NCBI GenBank assembly: GCA_037501455.1 | Contig: CM074864.1 | Span: 28,204,001 to 28,268,000, forward strand | Length of the DNA: 64,000 nucleotides | Source of the DNA: Lantana camara | Taxonomy: Eukaryota; Streptophyta; Magnoliopsida; Lamiales; Verbenaceae | Direction: 5' to 3' | Part shown: positions 2,741 through 55,828 of the stretch, piece after piece | Numbering within the stretch: position 1 is the first letter of the stretch | How the letters are laid out: the number at the start of each line of letters is the position of its first letter | The notes under the pieces: model-generated | Database searches by the model: none | Seen by the model: only the letters and a program-made list of their open reading frames with translations | What the model was told of the DNA's origin: nothing | Made by a program: the position numbers and the translations under genes

Positions 2741-2915
2741 CCTGAAATTCAAAGATTCAAGCAATATGGATGCATGTGGGTTAGTACGTGTGGATGTATA
2801 CAAGTATTGGAAATAAACAAGTATTCAAGTAAATGAGTCACATAATCACATTGTCCTATGCCGTACCAACTAGACAGACTCGACACGACACTAGAGCTCA
2901 GTTTTGCAACCTAGA
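2741..2915 (-). other. untranslated leader of element A
   Basis: This short stretch lies between the primer-binding site and the Gag start and holds no gene. The equivalent stretch in E is similar (CTAGAGCTC and CGACACGAC-like words), which supports common descent of the two elements. Confidence 0.7.
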
Positions 2916-5867: not shown

Positions 5868-7176
5868 TTAGTTATTATACATCTCATGTCACGTACATAA
5901 CATGTCGTGCGTCATATATGGTCCATTTAGAGTCTTGAGTCTCATGAATGCACTATATTGTCCTTTGTACAATTTTCTCCAGGGCGAAGACTTGCTGAGT
6001 TCATAGGACACTTTCGAGTCGCCTTTTCTTCTTGATATTGTTCGGTAAGAGGTGTACAGGTGGGTTTCTCTACTATTTAGTTAAATGACCCTATATACCT
6101 CCAATTTGTAAAGATTTCAGCCCAAAATTTGTTATATGTATATAGAGTCGTTTTGAGAGTAAATGTTTGCAACGTAAAGCTTTTATTTATGAACCTTTCC
6201 AAATGTTTTGGGGAAATTGAATGAATGAACGCACAGAATGGGGCCCAGGAACTTAGTGTAAGTGGCTATCCGAGGAGGCAAGGGCCGACGGTGATCCCTT
6301 ACTCTAGTTCCAACCAAACTACGGTGATACCAGACCTTGCCAGGAATGGGATCTGAGTGCCACTAAGGGAGTCATGTAACCTATTTTGGTCAATGAATGA
6401 GTGGTCGGGCCTTGCAAACCCGCCACCAACCGGGAGGAAGAAAGTGTAAATGATCATGAATGTGCACGAAAGAATGTAATGCATGAAAAGAAAGAAAGAA
6501 AGAATGTTTAATGAATTACACAAGGTGTTGGTTGGAGATAATGAACGCCCACTCACCAGGCCACGAAAGACCTAATGGAAATTGGTTGTTATAATCCCCT
6601 TTGATGATTTATTTATCTCGCCCACTTGGGAAATATTTCAAAAACCTCAAATGGGATTATAACTTGCATGTGAATGTTTAAATATTGTTTTATATTATAC
6701 TTATGCCCTGTTTTATACCCACCAGTCTCTTAAAGACTAAACCCAGTTTGTTTTCAGTTTCTTTGCAGGTTTGGAGTGCTAGGCGGGAAGTCGAGTCTGT
6801 CAAGTTTATTAGTTAGGTTTGGGTCACTTCATATGCATTATGTAATTAGATTTAATTTTACAAGAATGGCCAAATTTTATAACTATGATTATGATTATGA
6901 AATTATGTTTATGTACAAATTTTCGGAAATAGGACATTGTGCTAGTTAAACTGTTATTTTTCTTAATTTGGTACTGGATTATATACTATGCTTCCGCACT
7001 TGTCATTTATTTTTGTTCTTTATAATTTTGTTGCATAGGTTTAGTTCCAGCCTAGCCTATTGAGTGACTGAGTCCCCGTTCGCTGTGAGCTGGGTTCATG
7101 TATGGACTTTCCATTTCATATATGAATCGGGCTGATAGTGCGGGGGATGTAGCGCCTTTCCGGTTGGGGTGCTACA
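5868..7176 (+). repeat. 5' LTR of B, 3' part only
   Basis: Collinear with about 19654-20974 of the 3' LTR and very similar by eye. It contains the conserved hairpin at 6401-6426, the acceptor-like TTTCTTTGCAG ending at 6768, the CTAGGCGGG block and the terminal GGTGCTACA. Confidence 0.9.
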
Positions 7177-7224: not shown

Positions 7225-8732
7225 TGTTAGTGTGTATTTTGGGCTTAATTTTTTTTAATTTTCCGCACATATCTGATAGGAAATTGACTTAATTGTGCTT
7301 AAATTTGGTATTACAGGTCTGATTATGGAGAAATGAAGTACAATGCGAGATATGGATCAAAAGAAGTTTCAAGTGCAGAAAAAGACCTGAGCCATGATCT
7401 CAAGCCATGATCATCCCTTGAACTAAGTGGTGACGTAGCAGACACATCATCAAAATCAAAAGTTGCGACTGATTTTCTATTTTTGGCGAACTTCAGCTAC
7501 TTGCAGCTGCTTTATCAGTATTTGTTATCTCAATAAGAATATTATCAGGTTTTGGGATGCTAAAGAATATTTAGCCTTAATTTGTGTGCCAAAGATTGGA
7601 TTTCCAAGCATTTAACCAAGGCTTTTGGAGGAAAAAAAGATATTCAGCTTTTCTCTTGAAGAAGGAAGTAACGTAGCAGTAGTAGCAACTGAAGAACATA
7701 AGCAAAACAGGGGACTTCTCCCCTGTTATGATCAGCAAGCAATTTCTTTCCTTAATTCTCTTTTTCACTTATGTTAATGCTTTGATTTGCATAGCTAGTT
7801 GAACTCACTTGTTTAGATCACCCATATTAGCTTATTTTCAGTTTTGAAACAGTTGTTGTTTGGTAATTTTGCAAGCATGTACAACAGCTAATCTCTCTTT
7901 TATCCTAGTAAAGTTGTTTCTTTGATTCATGCCTTGGTTTTATGAGATCTAATTGTGTTTATGCAGCTCTAAATTTTTGGTATATGCATGTATCTTATGT
8001 GTATTGATTGAACTCATTTTTGGATGATTTTCTGATCAATTGTTATCTTGAAACTTGCTCTATTTGACTGCACAAATACTTGATCCGTAATTGTCTTGTA
8101 AATGTGCTTGAAGAGTCACACATCATTGATAGTTTATCACCATGTTTACTTGAGAATGGTGAGATGCATGCGTAAGAACTTAAACATTCCAAGCTTCTTT
8201 GAGTTTGTTAGTTAGGATCGGTATCCTTTTTATGATTAATGCTATCACGAAGTTAAATCTTAAGTGCGTTTCTATAAGACTGCTTTTATGACAAGAATGG
8301 TTAAGAAAGGTTAGTGAGCTTCTCATGATCATTATAAACTTAAGAAAGGATGAGGTGTGTAGAGCTTGTTACCGCTATAGCCGGTCAATCAATTAATTAG
8401 AGTTGAATATTGAATCTATGATCGAACCAATGGCATGAATTTTAAGAACAACTTGGTTAGGATAATCCCACTTTAAATCAATTAATTTCAGTCACTTTGC
8501 ATTAGCTTTCACTTGCTGTTATCCTTGTTTTAGTGTTTAGTTTGTAGTTTGATTAATTACACAACCCCCCCCCCCCCCCCCCCGGTTCGTGAACTTTTTC
8601 GTGGTTTGTTTCCTTGGTCATTTTGGAATATATAAGAATTGCTAGTCCTTTGGGTTCGACCCTTTGCTGCTATACTCAATTTATTGCGTGTTGGAAAGTG
8701 AAGGTATTATTTGGTGGATTTGGCACCCATCA
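7225..8732 (+). repeat. 5' LTR of C
   Basis: 1508 bp, TGTTAGTGTGTATTTTGGG...GGCACCCATCA. It contains a run of about 18 C near 8566-8583 and no coding capacity. Confidence 0.93.
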
Positions 8733-13127: not shown

Positions 13128-14621
13128 TGTTCGTGTGTATTTTGGGCTTAATTTACTTTAATTTTCCCTACATATCTGATAGGAAATCTACTTAATTGTG
13201 CTTAAATTTGGCATTACAGGTCTGATTATGGAGAAATGAAGTACAATGCGAGATATGGATCAAAAGAAGTTTCAAGTACAGAAAAAGACCTGAGCCATGA
13301 TCTCAAGCCATGATCATCCCTTGAACTAAGTGATGACGTAGCAGACACATCATCAAAGTCAAAAGTTGCAACTGATTTTCTATTTTTGGCGAACTTCAGC
13401 TACTTGCAGCTGCTTTATAAGTATTTGGCGTCTCAATAAGAATATTATCAGGTTTTGGGATGCTAAAGAATATTTAGCCTTGATTTGTGTGCCAAAGATT
13501 GGATTTCCAAGCATTTAACCAAGGCTTTTGGAGGAAAAAAAGATATTCAGCTTTTCTCTTGAAGAAGAAAGTAACGTAGCAGCAATAGCAACTGAAAAAC
13601 AGAAGTAAAACAGGGGACTTCTCCCCTGTTATGATCAGCAAGCAATTTCTTTCCTTTATTCTCTTTTTCACTTATGTTAATGCTTTGATTTGCATAGCTA
13701 GTTGAACTCACTTGTTTAGATCACCCGTGTTAGCTTATTTTCAGTTCTGAAACAGTTGTTGTTTGGTAATTTTGCAAGCATGTACAAGAGCTAATCTCTC
13801 TTTTATCCTAGTAAAGTTGTTTCTTTGATTCATGCCTTGGTTTTATGAGATCTAATTGTGTTTATGCAGCTCTAAATTCTTGGTATATGCATGTATCTTG
13901 TGTGTATTGTTTGAACTCGTTTTTGGATGATTTTCTGATCAATTGTTATCTTGAAACTTGCTCTATTTGACTGCACAAATACTTGATCCGTAATTGTCTT
14001 GTAAATGTGCTTGAAGAGTCACACATCATTGATAGTTTATCACCATGTTTACTTGAGAATGGTGAGATGCATGCGTAATAACTTAAACATTACAAGCTTC
14101 TTTGAGTTTGTTGGTTAGGATCGGTATCCTTTTTATGATCAATGCTATCACGAAGTTAAATTTTAAGAGCGTTTCTATAAGACTGCTTTTGTGATAAGAG
14201 AATGGTTAGTGAGTTTCTAATGATCATTATAAACTTAAGAAAGGATGAGGTGTGTAGAGCTTGTTACCACTATAGCCGGTCTATCAATGAATTAGAGTTG
14301 AATATTGAATCTATGATCGAACCAATGGCATGAATTTTAAGAACAACTTGGCTAGGATAATCCCACTTTAAATCAATTAATTTCAGTCACTTTGCATCAG
14401 CTTTCACTTGCTGTTATCCTTGTTTTAGTGTTTAGTTTGTAGTTTGATTAATTACACAACCCCCCCCCCCCCCTGTCGTGAACTTTTTCGTGGTTTGTTT
14501 CCTTGGTCATTTTGGAATTTATAAGAATTACTAGTCCTTTGGGTTCGACCCTTTGCTGCTATACTCAATTTATTGCGTGTTGGAAAGTGAAGGTATTATT
14601 TGGTGGATTCGGCACCCATCA
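13128..14621 (+). repeat. 3' LTR of C
   Basis: 1494 bp, TGTTCGTGTGTATTTTGGG...GGCACCCATCA. Nearly identical to the 5' LTR; the C run is shorter here (about 15 C, near 14460-14473). Confidence 0.93.
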
Positions 14622-19147: not shown

Positions 19148-20974
19148 ACAGATAATTATCGCATGCATTCATGTAGTGTAAATGATTGTTAAGTGTTTTA
19201 CTAAATGTATAGAAATACTTGAATGTTATTCCTAATTTATAAAAATGATATACGTTATATATTGTTTGGTCTATTTGCAATTAATTTGATATCTCTGTAA
19301 TTGATTTGAATGCCTTTATTTGTTTATTCTCTAATAATAAACTTGTTATATTTGAGTTATTATTGTTATATGAAATTCATGACTTGAATTGCTATAACGT
19401 GGCTTGGCTTAAATGCTTCTATATGAAACGTTAAGTTCCTTCTTGCGTTCTTTTACTATTTCAAGTGATTCCTCTTGCCTTTATAATTATTATATGCATT
19501 GTAAACATGTTGAAATGTGTAATATGATTATAGTTTGAAGGTTTGGCTCGATATTGCTATGAATTATGAAAGATATGGATGATTGAGCTTGAAACCTTCA
19601 TGTTATAAATAGAATTGAACGAATTACTTGATTATATGGCTTCATGACATCATTTTAGTTATTATACGTCTCATATCACGTGCATAACATGCCGTGCGTC
19701 ATATATGGTTCATTTAGAGTCTTGAGTCTCACGAGTGCACTATATTATCCTTTGTACAGTTTTCTCCAGGGCGGAGACTTGCCGGGTTCATAGGACACTT
19801 TCGAGTCACCTTTTCTTCTTGATATTGTTCGGTAAGAGGCGTACAGTTGGGTTTCTCTACTATTTAGTTAAATGACTCTAAATACCTCCAATGCGTAAAG
19901 ATTTCGGCCCAAAATTTATTATATGTTTATAGAGTCATTTTGAGAGTAAATGTTTGCAACGTAAAACCTTTATTTTATGAACCTTACCAAATGTTTTGGC
20001 GAGATTGAATGAATGAACGAACAGAATAGGGGCCACGAACATAGTGTAAGTGGCTATCCGGGGAGGCAAGGGCCAACGGTGATCCTTTACTCTAGTTCCA
20101 ACCAAACTACGGCGATACCGGACCTCGCCAGGAGATTGGTGAGGAATTGGAGCTGAGTGCCACTAGGGGAGTCACGTAACCCCTTTTGGTCTTGAATGGG
20201 TGGTCGGGCCTTGCAAACCTGCCACCAACCCGGAGGAAGAAGGTGTAAATGATCATAAATGCGCACGAAAGAATGTAATGCATGAAAAGAAAGAAAGAAA
20301 GAATGTTTAATTAATTACACAAGGTGTTGGTTGGAGATAATGCACGCCCACTCGTCGGGCCACGAAAGACCTAATGGAAATTGGTTGTTATAATCCCCTT
20401 TGATGATTTATTTATCTCGCCCACTTGGGAAATATTCCGAAAACCACAAATGAGATTATAACTTGCATGTGAATGTTTAAATATTGTTTTATATTATACT
20501 TATGCCCTGTTTTATACCCACCAGTCTCTTAAAGACGAACCCGGTTTGTTTTCAGTTTCTTTGTAGGTTTGGAGTGCTAGGCGGGAAGTCGAGTCTGTCA
20601 AGTTTATTAGTTAAGTTTGGGTCACTTCATATGCATTATGTAATTAGATTGAATTTTACAAGAATTGACAAATGTTATAACTATGATTATGATTATGAAA
20701 TTATGTTTATGTATGAATTTTCAGAAATAGGTCATTGTGCTAGTTAAACCATTATTTTTCTTGTTTTGGTACTGGATTATATGTTATGCTTCCGCATTTG
20801 TCATTTATTTTTGTTCTTTATAATTTGGTTGCATAGGTTTAGTTCCCGCCTAGCCTATTGAGTGAGTGGGTCCCCGTTCGCTGTGAGCTGGGTTCTTGTA
20901 TGTACTTTCCACTTCATATATGAATCGGGCTCATAGTGCGGGGGATGCGGCGCCTTTCCGGTTGGGGTGCTACA
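17348..20974 (+). repeat. 3' LTR of B
   Basis: 3627 bp, TGTAACGCCCC...GGGGTGCTACA. A consensus-like splice donor CACAAG/GTGAGT lies at 18328/18329 and an acceptor TTTCTTTGTAG at 20566. AT/TG microsatellites occupy about 18915-19150. Unlike A, D, E, H and K, I see no palindrome pair at the expected offset; that region instead has CTGCTG-rich text. The 5 bases after the end are AAGCA. Confidence 0.92.
18915..19150. repeat. TG/TA microsatellite cluster
   Basis: Runs of TG (18937-18953) and TA (19035-19056 and 19108-19150) inside the B LTR. Confidence 0.9.
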
Positions 20975-28363: not shown

Positions 28364-28815
28364 TAATGTGTAATGCCCCGTATTTTCAAATTATCCAGGT
28401 ACGCACGCCTCACACGTGAGTTTGAGTGTTAGATTGTTAAACATGCTTAATTGAATTTGAGACTAAGTGGATTATTTAAATAATTGTCTAATTGCTTATG
28501 TGATCATTTTGAATGCAATTCCATTTCTCAATATATGGATAATTTATACATTTCATCCCATAACATATTTTCACATATATATATACTTACATAAACTTAC
28601 ACTAATGTCATAAGAATAATATTTCCATTTCTTTATGCATTTATTCATGAATCATGCATTTACATATCTATATACTAATACACTCACACATGCATTATAT
28701 ATATATAATAAGAGCACTAAAGATTTATATACATATAGTATACATAATATCTAAACTTTTAACTTTATACATATACGATATATATATCTATAATTATATT
28801 ACATGTATTATATAT

Positions 28816-31800
28816 TGTAGCGCCTGGAGCGATGGGCCACCACATCCCCCGTACTTAAACCCGGCCCCACATATGAAATGGATTTCCATACATGAGCCCA
28901 AGTGTAAGCGAACGGGAACCTACACTCACACACTAGGCTAAGCGGGGCTAGAACTCAAACAGAGCGCGCAAAACAAATAGATATAAATGCGGAAGCAACA
29001 ACAAAAGGATCGCAAAGGAGCTCTATACTAACATACCCCTCATATACAACGGCCTGACGGCCCAAAAATAGGTCAAGTATATACATTAAAAGTTCTAAAT
29101 CTCCATAAGACATAATTAAATTCGAATACAATTCATGAAAGTAATCAAAATGTAACAGGTAAATATGCCGACTCGACCTAAACTCGAAAGTACGACACGA
29201 CCGACGCACTTCCCCGCCTAGCTCGAGAAACCTGCAACTAAAGTGTTAAAAGAAAGGGGTCAGTCTAAACTCGACTGAGTGAGGGGGGCTAACGCACACC
29301 CACACTAGAAATACGTATAAATCAAAGCATACAACAAAAATGGGGTCGATCATGAACCGAGTTAGGGTTTTTGCATATCAAATCATTTTGGAAACCTACA
29401 TGTAATATAGAGGAAATCCTAACTCGTTTCACAACCACCAAAGCATAAAAGGAAACATAACCGTCCGGCGAGTACGGACCTCCTCAACTCCTCATACAAA
29501 TCATAAATACATAAGAATTCATAAATTCACAACTCCTCAACGGCTTGGTGATCGGGAATCAAACCCTCTCCACCCATATGGATTCTATATACATACGGGG
29601 TAGCTAACCCACGATATGCCTTCCCCGGTTATTGACCGAGGGCTCAAGGTGATAGCGCCTTCTCAACCTCCAAGAGTCGCACGCCACCACCTCAAATGGG
29701 AAGTGCACAGGCTTAACCCGACGGCCCATGCCGTACCGGGGGTCCTTACCCACCATCCCTGGGCCCGGATTCATAAGAAACATACCAATAATCCCATCTT
29801 TCAGGGCACATCTCGCGAAATCATAAAGGAAACGAGCAAGGGATTCAAAATCATAAGCTCATATACGCTCATACTTATACCATTTTCAAAAATTCTTAAA
29901 GGGGATTCATAAAATCATAAACGTATCATAAGCATTCGTATTTAATCATGTAATACATATATAGCCACATGCGGGATAGGAAATCAATAACATAAAGGCC
30001 ATAGGTCACTTATCTAAAAGAAAGGATCCTAACCCTCACCTTGAAGTGGAAGCGGAGTGAAAAATCGGACAAAAGAATTAACCGGACACCTAAACCTCGG
30101 GCTCTTTAACTTCTTGAAGAGGCTCTGAAATAAAAGGACGCAAGACCCGAGACTTAGACTCAAATATGTACCAATTAGATGCTCGGAAATGCTTATGAAT
30201 GCAAATTGAATGCAATTGAAATGAAATTGCGTGTCCAATAAATCCTACCAATTCATATTTACACAATTCATAGAGAATAAGGTAATAAGTTCAAAACAAG
30301 CACATAATGCGTAATATAACAAGCTAACATTGCATACACGTCATAAACGAAGAAAGAAAACACAAAGAAAAACAACGAAGCGATAAAACGAGCAATTGCC
30401 GCCGCCAAAATTTCAAATGACACGACCGTGTTGGGTTTTAGTTCGAAATGGACACGGCCGTGTCCGGTTAAAATAAATTCAGAAGCTTCATTCGAGGGGC
30501 TGACACGGCCGTGTTGAGTTTTAGTTCAAAATGGACACGGCCGTGTCCGATTTTAAAAAAATAATCTGCCCCAAGTCGAGAGGCTGACACGGCCGTGTCC
30601 AAAACATGCACAAAGTTGACACGGCCGTGTTGGCCTATCGTCTTCGAAAAAAAATAGCAGCAGCAATAGTGTTTCAGCAGCAAAAACAGGGCAAAGAAGC
30701 AGAGCAAGCACGCAGCAACAACAACAACTAACTCAAGCCACAAAACTCAAGTAAATTATAGCAAATCACTTCATAAGCAACATATAATCTCCCAACTATC
30801 ATAAAAGCTAAAGAACCATAATATAACTCAAGAATTCTCATGAAAGAAATTGAATTCCATCAATGGAAACTTCCACCACACTCATCCTTATTCAAAAGCA
30901 AGACCATATATTCATATTGGGGACATAAGAGATCATATATATATATTCAAACCAAAGCATAACTCCATGAAACAAGGAGGATCATCAAACCCTAAAAATT
31001 CATGTCGTGTTCCATATATTCATCAAACATAGCCCAAAGCATGGAATTAATAGCTTAAAATGACCATTTATTCATGTACATATCAGATAATAGCTTACCC
31101 CTTGAAGAAGTTGGAAGAAAATGGAGATTAGAGCTCAATATCTCCTTGGGGTGAATAGTGACGGCTTTGAAGCTTGAACTCCAAAGTTGCTGTACCTTTT
31201 CCTCTCTTCCTTGCTTGAACCGAGAATGGGAGTGAGAGGGATGGATAGTATATGGTGTTGGTGGAGTGTGGGCCCAAGCTTACGGGTAATATGCCAAAAA
31301 TTGATGGGTTAAGGTGCAATTAGGTGAAAGGTAGTCGTATGCAAGCGAGGTGAGTTTTCGGTCGAATTTCGGGGTACTAAATGAGCTTAAAAGGTTATAA
31401 GGCTTAGTCCATCGAACCCGAATCATCGAAACGAGTTCAACGGTGGTGACAGAATTCAAATCCGAATTCCCGAGCTCAAATTACACATATTGGAACCCAA
31501 GGTACGCTAAAAGCGTTTTAAACTCCTTTAGGTTCCGAACGTAGCAATTAATTCAAAAGCTCAACATATAGATTCGAATACATATAACGAGCATATATCC
31601 AAGTTCATAACACGTAAATCTCCAACATACTAAAGCAACATAAAATTCCCGGATTCAATTCAAGCATCAACGAATCAAATCTTAACAAATCGCATTCATA
31701 ATCATATAAAATTCATTCAAATCCATAAGAAATATTTAAAATAAGAATTAAAAGAATAAAGAACATAAATTTAAACAAAGTAAATCGCGCACATGCGTCA

Positions 31801-31832
31801 TACCTGTACGGTCTGAAAGTCGGGGCGTCACA
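28816..31832 (-). mobile_element. solo LTR D
   Basis: A single 3017-bp LTR on the minus strand (TGTGACGCCCC...GGCGCTACA) flanked by TATAT at 28811-28815 and 31833-31837. No internal region, so it is the product of recombination between the two LTRs of an inserted element. A consensus-like donor GGG/GTAAGC begins at 31098 and an acceptor TTTAGTTGCAG ends at 29232; the six-palindrome cluster lies between them. Confidence 0.94.
30419..30632. repeat. six-palindrome cluster in solo LTR D
   Basis: Six copies of a GACACGGCCGTGTC-type palindrome start at 30419, 30451, 30502, 30534, 30586 and 30618. The pair spacings are exactly 32, 32 and 32 nt; between pairs they are 51 and 52 nt. The first two pairs also share their 17-nt spacers (TTTTAGTTC common). 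Confidence 0.95.
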
Positions 31833-32390
31833 TATATACACTACATTACATACACACAAGACTCATACACAAGAACACACACTCTTTCTGTAACACACAC
31901 AGTAAACCCTTTCATTCATCATCTTCATCACATCTTTGATCCCCAAGAAAGAAGAATAGAAAGAGTTGGATCATCCATCAAGAAGCATTAGCAATTATCA
32001 CCATCTTCATAATCTCCATCATTTCATTCCTCCATCTCCCTCATCCCATCCCAAGGTGTGTATATACATATATATGTGTGTGTGTGTGTGTTTTCTTTGA
32101 GATTGTTATGATTTAGGTTTAAATTCTTGTTCCTTGATGATATTATGCTAATATATGTTAGGATCTCTGATTTTATTTCAAGAATTAGTTGATGTGTGTG
32201 TGTATATATGTGTGTGTATGCATATATGTGTGTTTTGATGTGGGATGGATGAATTCATGGATTTAAACTTGTTTTAATGTGTGTTTGGTGTGCTATATCT
32301 TATGTTTTGATCTTCTTGTGAGTTGTTTTGGTTGGGGTGATGTTTTGGGGTGATTTTGGAACCACCTCTTCGAGCTATTTCAGAGCCTAC

Positions 32391-32500
32391 CCAAACGCCC
32401 TAGTTCATTCACCAAACGCCCATGTAGCAACCTACTGCCTCACCCGAGGAGCTTCACACGGCCGTTTCTACTTTCACACCATTTTTCACACGGCTGTTTC
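32391..32500. repeat. palindrome pair in 5' LTR of H
   Basis: CACACGGCCGTTT at 32455 and CACACGGCTGTTT at 32487, starts 32 nt apart. CCAAACGCCC words at 32391 and 32412 lie just upstream. Confidence 0.8.
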
Positions 32501-34620
32501 TCCCTCATAAGAGCTCCGTTTGACCTAAATTTTGAATCCACGGAAAGATCTTGAAGTCTAGAATATTTGAAATTTGAATCACCTCAATATCATTTCTTTT
32601 TTGTGAGATATAATCAATTCATTTTGGTGTCGCCACTTTATCAGAAATCTGCACTCCTTCAACTTCGGACCTATGCCATTTACTCCTCGCTTTGAACCAC
32701 GATTCAAGCCATATATACTTTTAAATGTCTTTGTGTCTAATTTCATATACAACAATCAAAACCTAATTCCCAATTCTCAAACTCAAGATATATCCATTTT
32801 CCTATAGCTTGCGCAATTCTGAAAATTCCTAACTTTTGCTAAACTTTGCCAAAATCCATTTTATCGCTTTCCTTTCACTTACCTGAACTATTATGTTACT
32901 TAAATGCATATTATACATCTCTAATCGGTTATTATATTGTTAATTACACTCCTTGTCTTGGTAATTGATTATTGGTTGATTGTTCGTTGTGGTATGACAT
33001 TATATGATCGTCTATTGCGTAGAACATTAATTATGCACATAAACACTCTCATGACCTAGCGTCTCATTCTATAATTCTCGCACGCATGTCATATCATTTC
33101 ACGATACCTCATATCTATGCCGTGCGTCTTATTTGGTTTCATATCAAGTAATTTCTCACGAGTACACGTTATGCCTTCTCTTATACAGTTCATCTCCAGG
33201 GTAGAGACTTTTGGATCCAATAGGCACCCATATTACTCATGTTCCTTGTCTCGTGGTATTCCTGGTGAGGGTGTTTTCCATTTTAGTTATCTATTAAACC
33301 CTACAACCCATATGTGAATGTTTTGGCCAAAAACCTTACTGTATAGCTATATTACGTTTCAAAGGATTATCGAGTAAATATTTTAAAAAGAATTGAACCG
33401 TTTCCAATGAAATGAACTGAATTACTGATTCCCTACCATTTTCGCGAGAACTGCACTGCACTGTACTATATTATGGGCCCAGGGAAAACGTGGGATTGGC
33501 GACCGGATCGGCATCGGGCCGACGGAAAGAACCCTTGCACGTAGTACCCATTGGGAATACCTCTGCGCGACCTAGGAGATGGTGAGGTGGAGTATTCCTG
33601 AGCCGGTGGTTCCCATACCATCGAAGGAGCGGGTAGGAGTCATGATCCCCCGTCTCATACTGTACTGATTGTCTCCCGCGACTGGGTTACCCCTGACGGG
33701 GAGAAAGAATTGGGTGGTTCGGGGTCTGCAGGCCTGACCATCACCACGGAGGAAGAAGGTTGGACTGTATTATTCCTATTTATTCTTGAACCTGTTAATT
33801 AACTGACTGATTGAATGATTGATTGTATGATCATGATTTAATAGTTATTCCCTATTGATTTTACACGGTCGGAATATGGCTGGAGATTGTGCAAGCTCAC
33901 TCGCCGAGCTACTAATCCACCCCACTGAACTGAAACAACTTTAAATTGATATAGTTGTAAAGTTCGAGTATTGATATCTATTTTATGCCTCTTTGAGTAG
34001 CTAATTTCAAATAAAACTTTGCTCGGGTTTTATGACTTGCATGTGCATATTTTATATATACGTATAGCCCCTGCTCACTCAGTCTTCTAGAGACTGACCC
34101 CTCTTTTCCCACTTCTCAGCTCTTTGCAGGTTTTGCTAGGCGGGAGTCAAGTCTTAGTGGTTATCTCGAGTCCCACTTGTACACTCGAGTCACATTTTAC
34201 ATTTATTATGTTTACTTTTATTATGTATTTAAATAGGCATGTGTGCCGACGTATGATTTATGAGTTATTGAATTATTGAATATTGGTTTGGGACAGGTTG
34301 CATGCTTAGTTGAACCCGTTGTTAGGTGTATGTCGAATTTAATTATGTTTATGGGTTTAGGGCTTATAGCCCATTGTTATTTATGTTGAGCCTGTGAGCA
34401 TTTTTGTGATAAATTATTATTAATTACTTCCGCATTGCACTCGTTGAGTTGTTGACTTATTTGGTACGGGATTAGATTCCGCCTAGCTAGGGAGTTGTTT
34501 TTATTTTGTCACTAGTTCGCTATAAGTCCGGTTCATGCTAGATCATCAATTTCATGTGTGGACTAGACTTGTAGTGCGAGGGATGTGGTGTCTATCGTTG
34601 CGGGGTGCTACATCCTAAGG

Positions 34621-34632
34621 TGGTATCAGAGC
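34621..34632 (+). other. primer-binding site of H (tRNA-Met)
   Basis: TGGTATCAGAGC, 8 nt after the LTR end. Confidence 0.95.
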
Positions 34633-36708
34633 CCGGTTGTAAAATCAGGGTTTCTAGTGTCGTGTTATGTCAAGTGTAGGTCGAACATCTAAGGAATAAC
34701 ATGTCAACGTGTGCACCACATTGATCATGAGCATTATTATTGAAACTTGACACGGAAAGTATATTATAAAATGTGTTTGACTTAAATTTTGTTGATTTAT
34801 GTGTTACATTTTGCATCAATGCGTGCTTTTGGTGCTCATTATGTGACATATGCATTAACTAACCCCATGCATTTATATTCGAATTGAGTTGTGAATTGTA
34901 GGATATTATTATAACATCAAACCAAGGCCAATTTTCGCAACCAAAAAAACTTGCCAAGAGCTCTTCTTTTGGATATGGGTGAATTGAAGAAGTCTCCGGA
35001 AATTTAGAAGAACGCGGGTAATTGGTGATCCTTATGATGAGGTTAGAAGTTGGGAGATTAAGATCGAGTTAGGAATCAAACCATGTGTGAAGATTGAGCA
35101 TGGTTGGGCTAATGGTATGAGAGCATGATGTTATGACCCCAAATAAATACATGCTCCTACCCTGCAAACGAAGTTGGTTAATCAAGTTCAAGAGGCCCGA
35201 TTAATTTAAGAAAGAATTGAAGAGCAGACTTGAAGGCACCAAGATTCAATGTTCGAATCAAAAGGGATCGAAGATGAGAATTTTGAGGGTTCTAGAGTTA
35301 AGGTTCTAGAGGGCTAAATGGAGTGATTCGAATCGGAGTCAGGATACTTCAAATTGTGAGATAAGGTCCATGTCGGATGAAGTTGGCGAGATCATTAGAA
35401 GATGTGCAAGGTTAGAACTCACAAGAGCAATGCACATATCTATCTACAAATGAAAGTTGATCAAAGAAATTTGAGAGGCATCATCAACTTAAGGATTCGG
35501 TGAATGGACACTTTGAGGGTACTAATATTAAAAGTTTGAATTAATAATTAGAATAGGGACTTTGGGAAGAATTGAGTTATCGGAATGAAGAGGCTAAAAC
35601 AAGATTCTCGAGATTGAAGTTATGATCAGGAATTTAGTTCGGGGTGAGGAATAAAAAGACTTTTGATATTGGAACCGGGTCAAGGTGAACTAAGAGACCA
35701 CTTAACTTTTGGATTCATGAAGGGGATAAGCAAGATACTTGGATCGACATTTAAATCAAGGTTCGATGGAAGATGAAGTTGCTTGACCATTGGAATCCTT
35801 TCAGGTTAGAACAAGGAAGCTTTCTTCGGAATAGCTATTACGGTAAGGAATTGGTGAAATGAAGAATTGTTCGAGAGAAGATTTGAGGGGATCGACTCAG
35901 TCGGATATGGAAGGCCTAGGAGCAAGTAACAACCTCAGATCATGAGAATATACCACTTGATGCAAAGGAATTCGGAAGTTTGTTAGATCGTGCCAGGAAT
36001 GCAAGGAAACCAAGGAAGTTAGAAGACCGTGGGTAAACAAGAGGTGAACAACGGATTAGAGAGCAAAGGATCAAACCTCCTAGCTAAAGCTTACCTACAT
36101 GGTGAATGGTACTCGCATTCATGGCACGTACACCATTCATTGTGTTAAATCATTTAATTCTCTTATATGTGTATTAGATTGATTTAATTTCCCAAACGTG
36201 ATGCATACCTTGATTGTCGAACATGTGCTACATGCATTGAGCATTCTTACCCAACATACATAGCTTAGTGTTTGCTTGGTAGGAAGTCTTCACCTTATAT
36301 TTCACTTGCCATTTCAAATAAGTCATGTTTGGGTCAAGAGTGAATCTTTGATTGCAAAGAATCGAGCAAGTGTGATGGAGACTTTGAGGAGTTAAGAATT
36401 GAATTGGAAGGTGATGTTGGAGAAATCAAGAATTTTGGGGTTTAAGCAAACGATGGGCCAAGTTCAATAAACAAATAAAGAAATTCTTAAGGGGGAGAGC
36501 ATGGCCAAGGAATAAATTTGAACTCTTGGTCGTGCTAAAGAAGTATTTATAGTGGGAACTACAGGAATGTAAGATTTAATAAGTCACGAGACTCTACCAA
36601 AGTTATAAACAATAAGTTGGCAAGTTTTAGCACTTGAAGAACGGCAAGGCTACGATATCTAGAGCTTCAAGAAAATTATTGAGAGAAACGAGCACTTGAG
36701 TGGATAAG
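34633..36708 (+). other. non-coding interior of H, first part
   Basis: No recognisable gene. It has GGTGAATGGTAC...CATGGCACGTACACC at 36101-36135, preceded by AGCTAAAGCTTACC, then AGGAAGTCTTCACC near 36281 and an internal purine tract AAGGGGGAGAGC at 36490. The same order is seen in B. Confidence 0.75.
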
Positions 36709-39191
36709 TGTAACGCCCCAGCTTTTGGCCTTTCAGGTATGAACGCCACGTTTGAGTTTTGAGAGTTAGAATTTAATTCTATTTGATCATTTCTTCAAAT
36801 TTTCACATCATGACATAATTTTTATAAAATTTTATTCTAAGTGTTTTTATGGAATTCATATGAAATTGATATTTATTGCATGAATTGAATTTGATCGGAA
36901 CGTGAATTAATTCCCGAGCATGAGTTAAATTCTTTTACGTCCTTAATTTGATCATTTTCTTAAATTTGGGGACTTAATTGCATAACTTAATAAGTAAAGG
37001 GACTTAATAGAAATTGGAGCATTTCTTCTCCCTTATAGCAGCCATCACATACCTTTGCTTCTCATTCCATACAAAACATTACATACACTTGTTCTTGCTT
37101 CCATTTTCAACCGATGCAAACCCTCATCAAGGAGAAGGGAAATTTCATCAATTCAAGTCATATTTTGTAGGTTTTGTTTCCATTGGAGCATCATCATCAA
37201 CATAACTTCATCTTTTCTTCTATTTCTCTCGTTTAAGGTAATTTTGGAGATTTGATGAAGTCTTGAATTGAATGTGATTGCTACGGCTTTGGTATGAATT
37301 GGTTGAGTTGAGTAATTGTTGTTGGAAGCATGTATGTGAACTTTGAGCTTAAGTTTGATGCATATATCATGGACTTTGTGGACTTGGAGCATAAGTGAGT
37401 ATATGGGTTTGTAATGAGTGATTCTTGATGATCAAGCTTGGAATTAAGTGTTTATATGACTTATTATTGATTATTAAGTATGCTAGTATGGTTAAATCTT
37501 GATTTATGAGCATTTGAACTTGGTTTTGGATCATTTTGATTGATTGGTTTTTGGTTCATATTTTTTTCCCCTACTGCATCTGCATATTGGGAACGGCCCT
37601 TCCTGTCCCAATTCATTCTGGGAACGGCCGTTCCCACCCCTACCAGCTGTCCCGCGAGACTGGGAACGACCCTTCCCAGTTTTGGCTTATAGCCAGAATG
37701 GCCGTTCCCAACCATGAGCAAATTCCAAACTCTTACAGACGCACGGGATTTAGTTTGGGGAGCCGGGAACGGCCCTTCCCAGCACCAGTTCAAAATCGGA
37801 ACGGCCGTTCCCATGCTCGAGTGGGTTTTATCAACTTTCTACATAAAATGTGATTTTTAAAACCCATTTCTAATGCCTTAATTGATCGATACGTGTTATT
37901 ATATGCTTGTTTTATGCATGAAAATGATCATATCAGTTTATAAATTGTTAATGCACATCATATTGATCATTACCACGCCGTTCGTCCTAATTGGTACATT
38001 TTGAGTCGTGTCTCACAGACAATTATCTTTCTTGCACAGACCAGCTTCTTGGTGACGAGGAGCAGGCCCTGTGAGCTATTTCCTTATTTATTTTGGTCTC
38101 ACAGGTGAGGTTTAATTTTAGATAAATAGAACCTTTACAACCCTTATGTGGATTTTGGCCAAAAATGTATTATTATACTATAGATTTTCATAAATCTCAA
38201 ATGATTTCAAAATTTACTTAGTTTACTGTACTGAACTGACCGTATTTTTGGCGAGTATACTGTACTGCACTGTGGGCCCGAAGGTAGTGGCTTGAGCCAA
38301 CCGGGAAAGCATGGGCTGAAGCGTAACTCTTGAGCTAGCCTCACCATTTTGGGATGACCCCTGGACCCCCTAGGAGATTAGGCGAGGAAGGAGTTATGGG
38401 CTTAGGGATTCATGTACCCTCTGCTCACACTGATTAGATGGTTGGGCTTTGCAAACCCACCATCACCCGGAGGAAGAAGGGACTGAAACTGCTACTGAAT
38501 GTACTGCACTGTAATGACTTGTATGATCACTTAAATCATTGATAACCTAATTATTTTACACAGTCGGAGTAAGGTTGGAGAATTGCCCCACTCGTCGGGC
38601 CACTGATTGACTGAAATTAAATTAATTGTTAAACTTGATAGTTGTAACCTCGGGCGATAAAATATCTCATTTATTGACTTGTATTATTCTTTTACAAAAT
38701 ATTACCCGAGATTATAACTTACATGTGTGTGGGCATATATCTACTTATACCCCTCGCTCAGTCCATGGTAGACTGACGCCTCAACCTTTCAGTTTTGCAG
38801 GTGCGTGATAGGCGAAAATTAGAGTCGAGTCCTGTCTTTAATTTGGGTCTAGCACACTTCACCTTCACTTTATGTTCATGTATTGATACTTATGATATTT
38901 TGTAGCATGTCTTATGGAATTATTTTGGAGATGATATTGTATTGATATGTAAATGGAGTAGATAGTTGCTTTTGGACACTTGATGTTTGATAAGTGATAA
39001 TAGAATTTATGGTTCCGCTTTTATTGCTCTGAATTGATTGTTTGGTTTAGGGTTACTCCCGCCTAGCTATTGTCATTTTTTTTTATTGTCTCCCGTTCGC
39101 TATAGCTTTGGTTCATATATGGATTGTCCATTTCGTATGTGAACTGAACTATAGTGTGGGGGATGTGGTGCCTAGCGTTTCGGGTGCTACA
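36709..39191 (+). mobile_element. solo LTR K
   Basis: A single LTR of 2483 bp (TGTAACGCCCC...GGGTGCTACA) in the interior of H. The flanks are ATAAG (36704-36708) and ATAAA (39192-39196), a target duplication with one change. Donor-like TTTAAG/GTAATT at 37237/37238; acceptor CAGTTTTGCAG ending at 38800. Six palindromes lie between them. Confidence 0.88.
37589..37812. repeat. six-palindrome cluster in solo LTR K
   Basis: Copies of GGGAACGGCCGTTCCC-type units start at 37589, 37620, 37662, 37694, 37765 and 37797. Pair spacings are 31, 32 and 32 nt. Same unit sequence as in LTR A, although the two LTRs look otherwise different. Confidence 0.92.
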
Positions 39192-40433
39192 ATAAAGGTG
39201 CAAGTTTCAGGAAAATTTAGAAGTCGTGTCGATAAGGAGAAAAGGGGTGATCGATGGAAACAAATCCAAGTCATCGATCTCTCATGATGGTCGAGTACGA
39301 ATTCAACATCCCTAAGATTTAACAAGGGTTGAGTTTGTATTGCAAGTTTTGAGTACTAAGGTTATCGAAAGCATGAAGGACTATAAGAACGGTGGAGAAA
39401 CTATCGGGTAAGAAAAGCCCGATCGGATTAGCACATTCCCTGATGGCGAAGTAGAGAGTCAATTCAACCGACCGTTGGAAGTGGAAGATCTACGAGGCAA
39501 TACACCACATGAACAAGACAGGTTACCGACTGGTCAGTTGTTTTCCATAATGAACCAGTGATACTTTTGGGATTTGAGATTAGGAGTCAAGATGTTCAAA
39601 GACTAGCTCTAGCAGCTGAGAAGACTGAGTATAGTTTGTGGTATGGGATGAGTGGATTGGATTAAGATCAAGTGCCCACTCAAGAAAGGAACTTCGGACC
39701 GTGGGGTTCATAATGAAAGAAAAGTGGATCGTGGAGTAAAACTTGAGTGGACATTGAAGTGTCGAACTTATCGGGCATTTTGAGGTGTAACACTAAAAGT
39801 AGAGGGATCTCCAAGGACAAATCGAGTGTTGAGTCGGAACACTACCTCGAAAGATTCCCGAACAACGGTGAACGGTACATCAAGCATCCATGGCATATGC
39901 ATACACTTAACTTGACTTCGAATAATTTCATGATAATAAAGGTTTTAATCGTTTGTTGCATTAATTGCTTTTGTATGTTGATAATTGTTGTATTTGCTTA
40001 TTCCTGCCTATTTATGTATGATTGATCGTTGCGTGAGTGTTTATTTACTTGTTCTCTTGTTTCTTGTTGAGAGAACCTGCTTGTTGAGAGACGGGGTTCT
40101 CTCGTTGCTTGTTTAAGAGATGAGGTTCTCTCATTGCTTGTTTGAGAGACGGGGTTCTCTCGTTGCTTGTTGAGGGACGGGGCTCTCTTGTTGTTACTTG
40201 CTACTTGTTTAACTTGCTCTAGCGCAGTTTAGGTTTTCGAGTGGGTAAGTTCTGGTGAGTTAGGGCCGTGACCTTACAGCAATTGAAGACCCTGTGTTGA
40301 TTCAAGACCTATTGCGAACTAATTCGTGATGGAGAGTTGCTAACCCGCTTGGGATGAATACGGGAAAGTTGCTTAAGAGTCCAGAACTCGAGGCGGTGGA
40401 CCTGAGAACAGGTCTATTTTAAGGGGGAGAGGT
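39192..40433 (+). other. non-coding interior of H, second part, with hairpin array and PPT
   Basis: GGTGAACGGTAC...CATGGCATATGCATAC lies at 39867-39903. A tandem array at about 40066-40195 follows, with units GAGAGACGGGGTTCTCTCGT (about 28 bp, four copies). The polypurine tract AAGGGGGAGAGG is at 40421-40432. No coding signal. Confidence 0.82.
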
Positions 40434-41122
40434 TGTAACGCCCCATAATTTCAAATTATCCAGGTACGCGCGCCTCACGCGTGACTTTGAGAGTTAGATT
40501 GTTAAACATGCTTAATTGAATTTGAGACTAAGTGGATTATGTGAATAATTGTCTAATTGCTTATTTGATCATTTTAAATACAATTCCATTTCTCAATATA
40601 TGCATAATTTATACATTTCATCCCATAACATATTTTCATATATATATAAATATATATATATACTTACATAAACTTAAACTAATTTCATAAGAATAATATT
40701 TCCATTTCTTTATGCATTTATTCATGAGACATGCATTTACATATATATATATATATATTAATACACTCACACATGCATTATATATATATAATAAGAGCAC
40801 TAAAGATTTATATACATATAGTATACATAATATCTAAACTTTTAACTTTATACATATATGGTATATATATCTATAATTATATTACATATATTATATACAC
40901 ACTACATTACATACACACAAGACTCATACACAAGAACACACTCTTTCTCTAACACACACATAGTAAACCCTTTCATTCATCATCTTCATCACATCTTTGA
41001 TCCCCAAGCAAGAAGAAGAGGAAGAGTTGGATCATCCATCAAGCAGCATTAGCAATCATCATCATCATCTTCATCATCTCCATCATTTCATTCCTCCATC
41101 TCCCTCAACCCATCCCAAGGTG

Positions 41123-41170
<48 letters not shown>

Positions 41171-43717
41171 TTTTGTTAGAGATTGTTATGATTTAAGTTT
41201 AAATTCTTGTTCCTTGATGATATTATGCTAATATATGTTAGTATCTATGATTTTATTTCAAGAATTAGTTGATGTGTGTGTGTATATATATGTGTGTATG
41301 CATATATGTGTGTTCTGATGTGGGTTGGATGAATTCATGGATTTAAACTTGTTTTAATGTGTGTTTGGTGTGCTATATCTTGTGTTTTGATGTTCTTGTG
41401 AGCTGTTTTGGTTGGGGTGATGTTTTGGGGTGATTTCCCTTCGAGCTATTTCGGTCCCCCTGCTTTTTTTCCGAGCAGAGCCTACCCAAATGGGCGTTTG
41501 GGTACCTAGTTCATTCACCAAACGCCCATGTAGCGACCTACTGCCTCACCCGAGGAGCTTCACATGCCCGTTTCCGCTTTCAGACCATTTTTCAAATGGC
41601 CATTTATCCCTCATACGAGCTCTGATTGACCTGAATTTTGAATCCACGAAAACCTACTGAAGTCTAGAATATTCTCCAATTGGAATCACCTCAATATGTT
41701 TTTCTGGTTTGTGATATATAATCAATTCATTTTGGTGTCGCCACTTTAACGAAAATCTGCACTCCTTCAACTTCGGACCTATGCCATTACTCCTCGCTTT
41801 AAACCATGATTCGAGCCATATATCATTTTAAAGGTCTGTGTGTCTAGTTTCATATACAATAATCAAAACCCAGTTCCCGCTTCTCAAACTCAAGATATAT
41901 CCATTTTCCTACAGCTTGTGCAATTCTGAAAATTCCTAACTTTTGCTAAACTTTGCCAAAATCCATTTTATCGCTTTCCTTTCACTTACCTGACCTATTA
42001 TGTGACTTAAATGCATATTATACATGTCTAATTGGTTATTATCTTTTTAATTACACTCCTTGTCTTGGTATTTGATTATTGGTTGATTGTTCGTTGTGGT
42101 ATGACTTTGTATGATCGTCTATTGCGTAGAACATTAATTATGCACATGAACACTCTCATGACCTAGCATCTCATTCTATAATTCTCGCACGCATGTCATA
42201 TCATTTCACAACACCTCATATCCATGCCATGCGTCTTATTTGGTTTCATATCGAGTCATTTCTTACGAGTACACATTATGCCTTCCCTTGTACATTTCAT
42301 CTCCAGGGTAGAGACTTCCGGATCCAATAGGCACCCATATTACTCATGTTCCTTGTCTCGTGGTATTCCAGGTGAGGGTGTTTTCCATTTTAGTTATGTA
42401 TTAAACCCTACAACCCATATGTGAATGTTCTGGCCAAACACCTTACTGTGTATCTATATTATGTTTCGAAGGATTATCGAGTAAATATTTTTAAAAGAAT
42501 TGAACCGTTTCCAATGAAATGAACTGAATTACTGATTCCCTACCATTTTGGTGAGAACTGCACTGCACTGCACTATATTACAGGCCTAGGGAAAACGTGG
42601 GATTGGTGATCGGATCGACATCGGGCCGACGGAAAGAACCCTTGCACGTAGTACCTATTGGGACTACCTCTGGGCGATCTAGGAGGCAGGGAGACGGAGT
42701 ATTCCTGAGCCCGTGGTTCCCATACCATCGAAGGAGCGGGTAGGAGTCATGATCCCCCGTCTCATACTGTACTGATTGTCTCCCGCGACTGGGTTACCCT
42801 AGGTGGGGAGAAAGAATTGGGTAGTTCGGGTCTGCAGGCGTGACCATCACCACGGAGGAAGAAGGTTGGAATGTATTGTTCCTGTTTATTCTTGAACCTG
42901 TTAATTAACTGACTGATTGAATGATTGATTGCATGATCACGATTTAATAGTTATTCCCTATTGATTTTACACGGCCGGAGTAAGGATGGAGATTGTGCAC
43001 GCCCACTCGTCGAGCTACTGATCCCCCCACTGAACTGATACAACTTTAAATTGATATAGTTGTAAAGTTCGAGCATTAATATCTATTTTATGCCTCTTTT
43101 AGTAGCTAATTTCAAATAAAACTTTGCTCGGGTTTTATGACTTGCATGTGCATGTTTTATATATACGTATAGCCCCTGCTCACTCAGTCTTCTAGAGACT
43201 GGCCCCTCTTTTTCCACTTCTCAGCTCTTTGCAGGTTTTGCCAGGCGGGAGTCAAGTCTTAGTGGTTATCTCGAATCCCACTTGTACACTCGAGTCACAT
43301 TTTACATTTATTATGTTTACTTTTATCATGTATTTAAATAGGCCTGTGTGCCAACGCATGATTTATGAGTTATTGAATTATTGAATATTGGTTCGGGACA
43401 GGTTGCATGCTTAGTTGAACCCGTTGTTAGGTGTATGTCGAATTTAATTATGTTTGTGGGTTTAGGGCTTGTAGCCTATTGTTGTTTATGTTGAGTCATT
43501 GAGCTATTGTTGTGATAAATTATTATTAATTACTTCCGTATTGCACTCGTTGAGTTGTCGAATTATTTGGTACGGGGTTAGATTCCGCCTAGCAAGGGAG
43601 TTGTTTTTATTTTGTCACCCGTTCGCTATGAGTCCGGTTCATGCTAGATCATCAATTTCATGTGTGGACTAGACTTGTAGTGCGGGGGATGTGGTGCCTT
43701 TCGTTGCGGGTGCTACA
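40434..43717 (+). repeat. 3' LTR of H
   Basis: 3284 bp, TGTAACGCCCC...GGGTGCTACA. TATA-like TTATATACAC near 40891; donor-like CCCAAG/GTGTAT at 41119/41120 followed at once by TA and TG microsatellites; acceptor GCTCTTTGCAG ending at 43234. A palindrome pair lies at 41561 (CACATGCCCGTTT) and 41593 (CAAATGGCCATTT), 32 nt apart. A further palindrome, ACCCAAATGGGCGTTTGGGT, lies at 41484-41503 and is absent from the 5' LTR. Confidence 0.93.
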
Positions 43718-50606: not shown

Positions 50607-51715
50607 TTCTGAAAAAACGCTTTTATATATACGTAACCTATTTTATGTTTGTTTGATTTAAAAACGGTTGGTGTGTGTGAACGTTTTGAAAATAGCGAGA
50701 GATACGACTTTGAATTAGAAGTCGAAAAATTCTGAAATTTCGAAATTAATAAGGCTATGAATTCTGACTTTTGAAATGGGCCCGGGGAAGTGGTATATGA
50801 TTCTCGGGTCGACCACGGGGTCGCCGAGCTCTCTCATCAACACAACCCCATTTTGATTTAGAGAAATTCGCCCATCCTCGGGAGTTCGAGGGGAAGGCAG
50901 TTTCTCGATTATCGGTTGTTATCGGGGAGCGGGTAGGATCCCCCGACTCACACATTCTGATGGGAGAACGGGGTTGAGTGGACGTCAACTCATCCCATAA
51001 TGGTGAAAGGGTGGATTGTTTGTGAGTTTTGCTTTATTTTGATTCCGTTTATGCTTTGAAAGGAGTTACGAGGGTTTGAACTCGTTCTCGCCGAGTCTTT
51101 GATTTCTGCTTATGTTTGTTGTTCGTGAAACGGTAGTGGACTTGGATAATTGCTAAAACTTGGTTATTTTGGGCTTTTGCCCTAAAATCTTTTATATATT
51201 TATTATCACGGGTTAAAATGATTTAGATTGCAAAAACCACGCCCCGGTTCATGAACTTTCTGATTTGAATATGCTCTGTTCTTATATTACGTACGTGTGA
51301 GTGTGTTAGCCCCCTCACCAATCATTAGGATTGACCCCTCCTCGTTGTTTTCTTTTCCCCTTTTTGGTCGTTGAGTTGTAGGTTCTTGTGGAGGTTGTTC
51401 GTGCTAGGCGGCAATCGTTTCTTTTGAGCTTTGGGTCGTTTAGCGAGTTCATGCATTGTTTTAGTTTATGTTTGTTCCTTTGAATTTTCGAAACATGTAT
51501 AAGACTTTAAATTTGGAATTTAGTATATTTGTATAGTATAACTCGCTTCATTATAGTTTATTTGATTAATTTCCGAGCATTAATATGTGTATGTATGAAT
51601 CCTGGTGCTTCTGTATGTGTAATTATTTATTTTCACGCACTCTGATTTAGGGTCTAGACCGCCTAGCCTAGGTGAGATTTTGTTTGTCACCTGTTCGTCG
51701 TGGGTCGCACCAAGT
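50607..51715 (+). repeat. LTR fragment, inverted arm 1
   Basis: 3' part of a B/H-related LTR on the plus strand, with an acceptor-like GAGTTGTAG at 51381, a CTAGGCGG block and CCTGTTCGTCGTGG at the end. Bases 50607-51654 are the inverted partner of 52762-53806. It ends head to head with another LTR start near 51716. Confidence 0.82.
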
Positions 51716-52761: not shown

Positions 52762-54160
52762 GACCCTAAATCAGAGTGCCCGAAAATAAACAATTACAAA
52801 TACAGAAGCACCAGGATTCATACATACAGATATTAATGCCCGGCAATTAATCAAATTAACCATAATGAAGCGAGTTATACTATACAAATATACTAAATTC
52901 CAAATTTAGAGTCTTATACATGTTTCGAAAATTCAGAGGAACAAACTTAAACTAAAACAATGCATGACCTCGCTAAACGACCCAAAGATCAAAAGAAACG
53001 ACTGTCGCCTAGCACGAACAACCTCCGCAAGAACCTACAACTCAAACAAAAAAAAAGAGAAAAAGAAAACAACGAGGAAGGGTCAGTCCTAATGACTGGT
53101 GAGGGGGCTAACACACTCACACGTACGTAATACAAGAACAGAGCATATTCAAATCAGAAAGTTCATCAACCGGGGCGTGGTTTTTGCAATCTTAATCATT
53201 TTAGCCCGTGATAATAAACATATAATAGATTTTAGGGCAAAAGCCCAAAATAACCAAGTTTTAGCAATTATCCAAGTCCACTCCCGTTTCACGAACAACA
53301 AACATAAGCAGAAATCAAGGACTCGGCGAGAATGAGTTCAAACCCTCCTAACTCCTTTCAGAGCATAAACGGAATCAAAATAAAGCAAAACTCACAAACA
53401 ATCCACCCTTTCACCATTTGGGGATGAGTTGACGTCCACTCTACCCCGTTCTCTCGTCAGAATGTGTGAGTCGGGGGATCCTACCCGCTCCCCGACAAGA
53501 GCCGGTAATCGAGAAACCGCCTCCCCCTCGAACTCCCGAGGATGGGCAAATTTCTCTATATCAAAATAGGGTTGTGTTGATGAGAGAGCTCGGCGACCCC
53601 GTGGTCGACCCGAGAATCACATACCACTTCCCCGGGCCCATTTCAAAAGTCAGAATTCATAGTCTTATTAATTTCGAAATTTCAAAATTTTCCGACTTCT
53701 AATTCAAAGTCGTATCTCTTGCTATTTTCAAAACGTTCACACACACCAACCCTTTTTAAATCAAATAAACATAAAATAAGTTACGTATATATAAAAGCAT
53801 TTTTCCAATATTTCATAGGAAAAGGGACAACTCCCACAAAATACTAACCGAACACGTATTTACATAATTATATATACATACGTATATCACATGCGGGCTT
53901 AAAAGACATGCAAGGTTGTAGGTCATTTAACTAAAAAGGAAGAAAACCCCACCTTTCCAACGTAGTGGAGCAAAAGGATATGAAAGGGACGCTTACGGGA
54001 CCTCTTTGCTACCAACGGAACCAAACTCTGAACAAAGGAAACAACAATAGATACCCTTGTAGAAAAAACACTTGGCGCCACCCCTGAAACTCTGAAGAAG
54101 CACGAACCTCCAATTCCTCGAGGCAAGAAAAAAGGTATTCACCTTCCACGGTTAATCCGT
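52762..54160 (-). repeat. LTR fragment, inverted arm 2 and its continuation
   Basis: Minus-strand LTR middle and 3' part. In a 235-base stretch compared with the reverse complement of arm 1 I counted about 15 differences. It continues past the arm to about 54160, ending where gag/pol relic sequence begins. Confidence 0.75.
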
Positions 54161-55813: not shown

Positions 55814-55828
55814 AACCTCCCTCCTTCA
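55814..55828 (-). other. polypurine tract of E
   Basis: Minus strand GAAGGAGGGAGGTT, next to the LTR; it overlaps the last codons of pol. Confidence 0.85.

Follow-up and report, generated by a model that had tools for sequence, protein, structure and literature searches.

The window, i.e., the whole 64,000 bp stretch of DNA that was analysed, belongs to a genome of 1.27 Gb in 378 contigs and contains LTR retrotransposons nested in one another. Parts of two elements, A and E, lie on its minus strand. LTR A (2936–5867, sense on the minus strand) was delimited by its start and end motifs and is adjoined, ahead of gag, by a primer site which we take to be of the tRNA-Met type; the gag-protease open frame of the element (1427–2824, minus strand) matched Retrotrans_gag and RVP_2. 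LTR E (60487–63304, minus strand, start and end motifs present) is the 5' LTR of an element whose pol end, at 55756–56253 on the same strand, matched SH3_Tf2-1, with a C-terminal Chromo match just below the Pfam cut-off (22.4 bits against 25.1). The domains above the cut-off, all from open frames of A or E, were Retrotrans_gag, RVP_2, RT_RNaseH, Integrase_H2C2 and SH3_Tf2-1, with RNase H preceding the integrase zinc domain. The Ty3-type gag-protease and the position of RNase H before the integrase place A and E in Ty3/gypsy. Judging from these matches, both are probably chromoviruses, presumably of the Tekay/Del-like kind.

Three further LTR carriers, D, K and H, are provisionally grouped with A and E by LTR similarity only. 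Element H lies on the plus strand, is flanked by TAATG on both sides and has LTRs approximately 91% identical to each other. Its first LTR (28369–28814 and 31832–34613) is split by D and its second covers positions 40434–43717. LTR D (28816–31832, sense on the minus strand) shows start and end motifs and has the flank repeat TATAT on both sides. LTR K (36709–39191, plus strand, start and end motifs, flanks ATAAG and ATAAA) sits in the internal part of H. Both D and K have the appearance of solo LTRs inserted into H. An Rfam search of the window from 28815 to 39195 matched no family. Elsewhere in the window, a 1-kb inverted repeat with 94% identity occupies positions 50610–51654 and 52762–53807. 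Another element has 1.3-kb LTR-like repeats (5861–7176 and 19648–20974, 92% identical) enclosing a 1.5-kb direct repeat (7225–8732 and 13128–14621, 96%); its LTR-like repeats held no GC-rich palindrome pair among those listed.

The preliminary description reported three pairs of palindromes, six sites in all, in each of the LTRs A, K and D, and these were recovered with exactly the distances given. In LTR A (minus strand) the sites start at 4597, 4629, 4666, 4697, 4742 and 4774, corresponding to within-pair distances of 32, 31 and 32 nt; pairs 1, 2 and 3 cover 4742–4789 (32 nt between centres), 4666–4712 (31 nt) and 4597–4644 (32 nt). The sites of D (minus strand) start at 30419, 30451, 30502, 30534, 30586 and 30618, every pair being spaced by 32 nt, with pair 1 at 30586–30632 (32 nt between centres), pair 2 at 30502–30548 and pair 3 at 30419–30465. 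In K (plus strand) they start at 37589, 37620, 37662, 37694, 37765 and 37797, which gives 31 nt for pair 1 (37589–37635) and 32 nt for pairs 2 (37662–37709) and 3 (37765–37812). LTR E carries a single pair on the minus strand (62146–62196, sites at 62146–62165 and 62177–62196, 31 nt). The single pair described in each LTR of H was also found on the plus strand at the expected 32 nt (32455–32500, starts 32458 and 32490; 41562–41606, starts 41564 and 41596), but both are weak, and among the four palindromes of H only one, in the second LTR, is a perfect 12-bp palindrome. Sites described as palindromes of 15–16 bp were located as claimed, but many are imperfect and the longest perfect one in A measures 14 bp. 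In K (37589, 37662 and 37765) and in two LTRs from elsewhere in the genome, L010 and L016, a C-C mismatch beside the centre was seen in seven of the nine first members and in none of the nine second members, and so the pair seems to have a polarity.

The LTRs carrying these pairs had been called unrelated-looking, which proved incorrect. Short segments of the LTRs in the window can be aligned with one another at approximately 73–75%, and with LTRs elsewhere in the genome the alignments extend to about 1 kb at approximately 65–80%. Since the LTRs are partly homologous, the shared position of the palindrome clusters within them was probably inherited by common descent.

At least six palindrome types share the pair geometry. 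The type GGGAAC-NNNN-GTTCCC was found in A, K, L004, L010, L011 and L016, GACAC-GGCC-GTGTC in D, GAAAC-GSSC-GTTTC in L024, and AAATCC-N8-GGATTT in E and at four sites of L004. L020 holds both CTCTCCCC-GGGC-GGGGAGAG and a TACCC type; thus L004 and L020 have two types each, all at 31–32 nt. The type GTGACAC/GAGACAC-GGGS-GTGTCAC/GTGTCTC, in L018, L022 and L026, accounts for the 34-nt distance, seen in three LTRs and 3 of 34 pairs; its long matched arms flank a non-complementary GGGG or GGGC centre, a hairpin-like arrangement. Four of the seven types share an ACGG-centred core. The linkers of two D pairs are near-identical; between families, linkers and palindromes differ beyond recognition and the distance is unchanged. 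The claim that pair distance is kept while the palindrome letters change is thus correct across several types. Similar ACACGGGCGTGT words are presumably present in cotton repeats. In viral contigs, the D-type pair pattern had no match, and three stretches with the 16-mer (GC 0.49–0.69) showed no similar pair at 31–34 nt among the palindromes listed (at most 12 per contig).

The LTRs compared were cut from the window and from stretches elsewhere in the genome. They were A, K, D, E and H2 together with L004, L010, L011, L016, L018, L020, L022, L024, L025 and L026 (15 in all; L004, L016 and L024 are incomplete or have an unclear start). Near-copies were left out, namely L005–L007, the second LTR copies in L010, L011, L022 and L026, and further LTR ends. 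An automatic search returned 48 pairs, of which 33 were kept by eye and 15 dropped for overlapping registers, AT microsatellite or low similarity; it missed the weak pair of H2, and the addition of L020 1896 brought the set used for distance and wobble counts to 34 pairs, from 14 LTRs. Their distances were 32 nt in 24 pairs, 31 nt in six, 33 nt in one and 34 nt in three, within a partner search restricted to 28–37 or 30–35 nt. The 20 distances between pairs ranged from 30 to 78 nt. A fragment, L029, has at 278–342 a run of three palindromes spaced by 32 and 32 nt, an arrangement distinct from pairs.

Because this partner search was narrow, the less biased evidence on spacing comes from genome-wide pair counts and from the comparison with shuffled sequence. 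The word GGGAACGGCCGTTCCC occurred 15,128 times in the genome and its backward control not once. For ACACGGCCGTGT, 5,789 pairs had their starts 16–46 nt apart; among 50 of them, listed from the first places on contig C1 and counted by eye, 44 were at 32 nt, one at 31 nt and five at 41–43 nt. For AACGGCCGTT there were 2,216 pairs at 16–46 nt, and the 50 listed and counted in the same manner gave 13 at 32, three at 31, two at 28, two at 38 and 30 at 42–46 nt. The last 30 come from a few linker families and most plausibly link adjacent sites of two different pairs; of the 20 listed pairs closer than 41 nt, 16 were at 31–32 nt. Bare ACGGCCGT pairs at 17–47 nt amounted to 6,441 against three for the control, and the 34 distinct ones among those listed, again from the first places on C1, were distributed as 17 at 32 nt, one at 28 nt and 16 at 41–47 nt. 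In a sample of 264 kb, made of the window and 20 ten-kb stretches at round positions, 50 pairs of similar palindromes lay 12–120 nt apart, compared to none or one in each of 20 dinucleotide shuffles. Thirteen of the pairs in this sample were at 31–32 nt, a distance that yielded none in any of the 20 shuffles; the 20 stretches without the window contributed seven similar pairs at 32 nt and none at 31 nt. A chance origin of the pairs is excluded by these shuffles. The distances peak at 31–32 nt instead of spreading widely, and pairs occur by the thousand across the genome, far beyond the few copies initially noticed. Palindrome pairs with an almost constant pitch are therefore a real, genome-wide architecture, located inside LTRs in the copies sampled.

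The surroundings of the palindromes suggest an LTR leader with two predicted introns, the palindromes lying in the first. In K, predicted intron 1 (37238–38039, plus strand, AAG|GTAA ... TTGCACAG, donor by regular expression and acceptor by eye) would hold all six palindromes, and predicted intron 2 (CAG|GTGAGG ... TTGCAG) would cover 38105–38800 on the same strand. Across the 15 LTRs, with each site sought only on its own side of the palindromes and expectations taken from mononucleotide shuffles, the second donor AGGTGAGG was found downstream of the palindromes in 12 LTRs (0.16 expected), and the second acceptor, TTGCAG|GT-like, also downstream, in all 15 (1.8 expected). A site like the first donor was present upstream in 12 of the 15 (4.1 expected), by a pattern drawn after looking. 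The exon between the predicted introns measures approximately 64–85 nt in the eight LTRs paired by eye (A, K, D, L004, L011, L022, L024 and L025). The palindrome array, of one to four pairs side by side, lies approximately 0.35–0.75 kb downstream of the donor-like site. LTR A has TATA-like matches on either side of its cluster, at LTR positions 521 (some 560 nt before it) and 1696 (some 430 nt after it); a clear single TATA box was not found in the other LTRs examined. Just before the second acceptor-like site, an inverted repeat CAGTC...GACTGA with a varying loop was seen by eye in K (38755–38779) and at the corresponding position of A, D, H2, L004, L011 and L024. This repeat is possibly a hairpin conserved in the RNA, or else a branch-point region.

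The palindromes were examined for signs of maintenance as DNA or as RNA. In 33 pairs each arm was compared with its own palindrome and with the partner; the analysis, which included linker symmetry, also drew on 10 AACGGCCGTT and 20 ACACGGCCGTGT listed sequences. At arm positions 5–10 the own-arm match was the better in 18 pairs and the partner-arm match in five, with 10 ties; at positions 2–8 there was no difference (nine self, seven cross, 17 ties). On the sense strand, 408 arm positions comprised 339 Watson–Crick, 16 G.T, 17 A.C and 36 other combinations (45 versus 36 for the wobble comparison before the pair set was cleaned). This near-equality of G.T and A.C shows no G-U bias and so does not favour RNA. 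Covariation was analysed in 34 distinct sequences among the listed ACGGCCGT pairs, near-copies left out. Across two families, arm positions 4 and 5 were paired in 29 and 27 of 30 cases, against 17 and 16 in shuffles. Position 6, all 30 together, was paired in 22, a value reached by 120 of 2000 shuffles, and covariation within families at positions 6–8 was not above shuffles. Symmetry of the linker about the pair axis was weak (118 of 262 against 103.5 ± 7.1; 123 of 5000 shuffles).

The preliminary description had proposed two explanations. In one of them, a palindrome forms a hairpin with its partner, and the fold energies agree with this to a large extent: the advantage of a single long hairpin over two exceeded 2 kcal in 28 of the 33 pairs, two separate hairpins being favoured in L018, L022, L026 and L020 and for the first pair of L004. 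The sequences themselves give no clear sign of such a hairpin, since the outer arm positions match self over partner by 18 to 5 (positions 5–10), and the partner-pairing hairpin was not retained as a conserved structure. The other explanation, paired sites for a dimeric protein three helical turns apart, is compatible with the data and is the one preferred here, but the 34-nt distance in 3 of the 34 pairs is off-phase.

We tentatively propose that each pair recruits two copies of a dimeric DNA-binding protein, bound to one face of the helix, which would control transcription from the LTR. We infer all three components, the protein as the reader, its dimeric state and its transcriptional action. 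The distance is tight within pairs and loose between them, and the pair is therefore likely to be the functional unit. Three helical turns correspond to 31.5 bp. Plant introns are a setting in which enhancers and intron-mediated enhancement act, and the docking would take place in the predicted first intron of the LTR leader. The recruited factor could be of the host or encoded by the element; as it or its preference changes between lineages, the palindrome letters would turn over, and the geometry would stay because it is set by protein–protein contact. Docking on DNA is preferred mainly for the tight distance combined with free, unrelated linkers, as an RNA loop should tolerate insertions and deletions. 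It is also supported by the loose distances between pairs (30 to 78 nt), by the strand-neutral decay (16 G.T, 17 A.C), by the preference of the outer arms for self, and by the ACGG core recurring in four of seven types, as expected of a recognised half-site. A precedent exists in the palindromic CGG-CCG boxes of Sirevirus LTRs, as given in the accessible part of PMC2829016. The main doubts come from the LTRs with two types, L004 and L020, which one sequence-specific protein does not explain, and from the three LTRs at 34 nt; with the two AACGGCCGTT places at 28 nt among the 50 listed, the latter indicate that the helical phase is not perfect. The hairpin-like palindromes of L018, L022 and L026 and the tie at positions 2–8 (9:7) also speak against docking.

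The main alternative, possible but less probable, is that the palindromes are RNA elements of the unspliced transcript, as short stems with a 4–6 nt loop or as one long hairpin, which mark the full-length RNA for packaging or dimerisation. Retroviral packaging and dimerisation elements are retained only in unspliced RNA and, like these, palindromes lying in a predicted intron would be missing from spliced RNA. The sites that outline this intron (second donor 12/15, second acceptor 15/15, first-donor-like 12/15) thus fit such a role, as do the covariation of arm positions 4–5 across two families, the folding of 28 of 33 pairs as one hairpin and of L018, L022, L026 and L020 as two, the presence of two palindrome types in one LTR, and a zinc-knuckle match, below the cut-off, in the gag of the neighbouring element. 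Against it stand the sense-strand counts, with no surplus of G.U (16 versus 17), the unclear covariation of the outer arm within a family and the weak symmetry of the linker; moreover, hairpins do not need a fixed 32-nt distance. A more specific and rather doubtful version would be a sequence-independent twin-hairpin module in the Ty3/gypsy LTR leader, with a fixed 32-nt pitch and hidden in an intron, whose shape Gag would read to dimerise and package the genome, leaving the stem letters free to change even within one LTR. We consider it improbable that the clusters are host-silencing marks, whose transcripts fold and feed small RNAs, the arrangement being a by-product of regulatory boxes as proposed for maize Sireviruses. 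Both strands of the clusters of A, K and D do fold strongly as RNA (−104 to −129 kcal/mol for 226–261 nt), and an excess of small RNAs on Sirevirus palindrome clusters is mentioned in the accessible part of PMC10760457, citing Bousios et al. 2016, but the tight pair distance and the upkeep of the palindromes through sequence change would be left without a reason. Neutral relics of local duplication, left as a single pair spread within the LTR and across the genome with 32 nt as the ancestral spacing, are very improbable. The partial homology of the LTRs, the near-identical linkers of two D pairs and the C-C mismatch common to first members of K-like pairs are in line with copying; however, linkers and palindromes diverged beyond recognition and the distance between pairs drifted, whereas the distance within pairs did not.

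The U3 of the plant LTR element Tnt1, a member of Ty1/copia, carries the BI and BII boxes, which are short, partly dyad and repeated with a period of about 31 bp. They form a tandem repeat of one sequence, unlike the sequence-independent pairs described here. We know of no repeated fixed-distance pairs inside the LTR among retroviral or Ty1 packaging elements. These elements are palindromic or paired RNA near the 5' end of the genomic RNA, according to the accessible parts of PMC8396678 and PMC4588261. The closest likeness is to the repeated motifs (RM boxes) of Sirevirus LTRs (Bousios et al. 2010, PMC2829016, accessible part), which are palindromic, occur in many copies per LTR and are suspected to be cis-regulatory; the boxes of one element resemble each other and differ from those of other elements, and nearly all have a CGG...CCG core. 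Here too a palindromic LTR motif is repeated, the same within an element and differing between elements, except for L004 and L020 with two types each. The CGG-CCG core is found in the GGGAAC and GACAC (ACGGCCGT) types and in some GAAAC sites, and is absent from the AAATCC type of E and L004. The RM boxes belong to Ty1/copia elements, whereas carriers A and E are Ty3/gypsy. The RM boxes cluster just upstream of the TATA box; in LTR A, TATA-like matches lie on both sides of the cluster. The pairs here are spaced by 31–34 nt, and a fixed pair spacing does not appear in the accessible part of PMC2829016. In maize Sireviruses, the palindrome clusters to which small RNAs map in excess (Bousios et al. 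2016, as cited in PMC10760457) resemble the present ones in their strong predicted RNA structure and differ in superfamily; pair spacing is unmentioned in the accessible text. The palindrome-pair arrangement is likewise not described in the accessible parts of PMC3212565 and PMC6911290. A literature search on palindromes in Ty3/gypsy or Tekay LTRs, the motif letters and helical spacing, with subscription papers mostly outside its scope, returned neither a fixed pair spacing nor a Ty3/gypsy case in the text accessible. The earlier statement that the arrangement had no description thus needs to be narrowed: palindromic LTR boxes are known from Sireviruses, and what is new relative to them is the rigid pair spacing and the Ty3/gypsy setting.

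Plant LTRs evolve fast, which makes their cis-signals hard to find by alignment; here, the geometry outlasts the letters, in thousands of copies within one genome. Any sequenced plant lends itself to an easy test of the spacing rule. If the pairs form a docking array, they would offer a route to the factor that activates or represses this abundant class of plant retrotransposons, and if they act as RNA, they would be candidates for the packaging signal of plant Ty3/gypsy elements.
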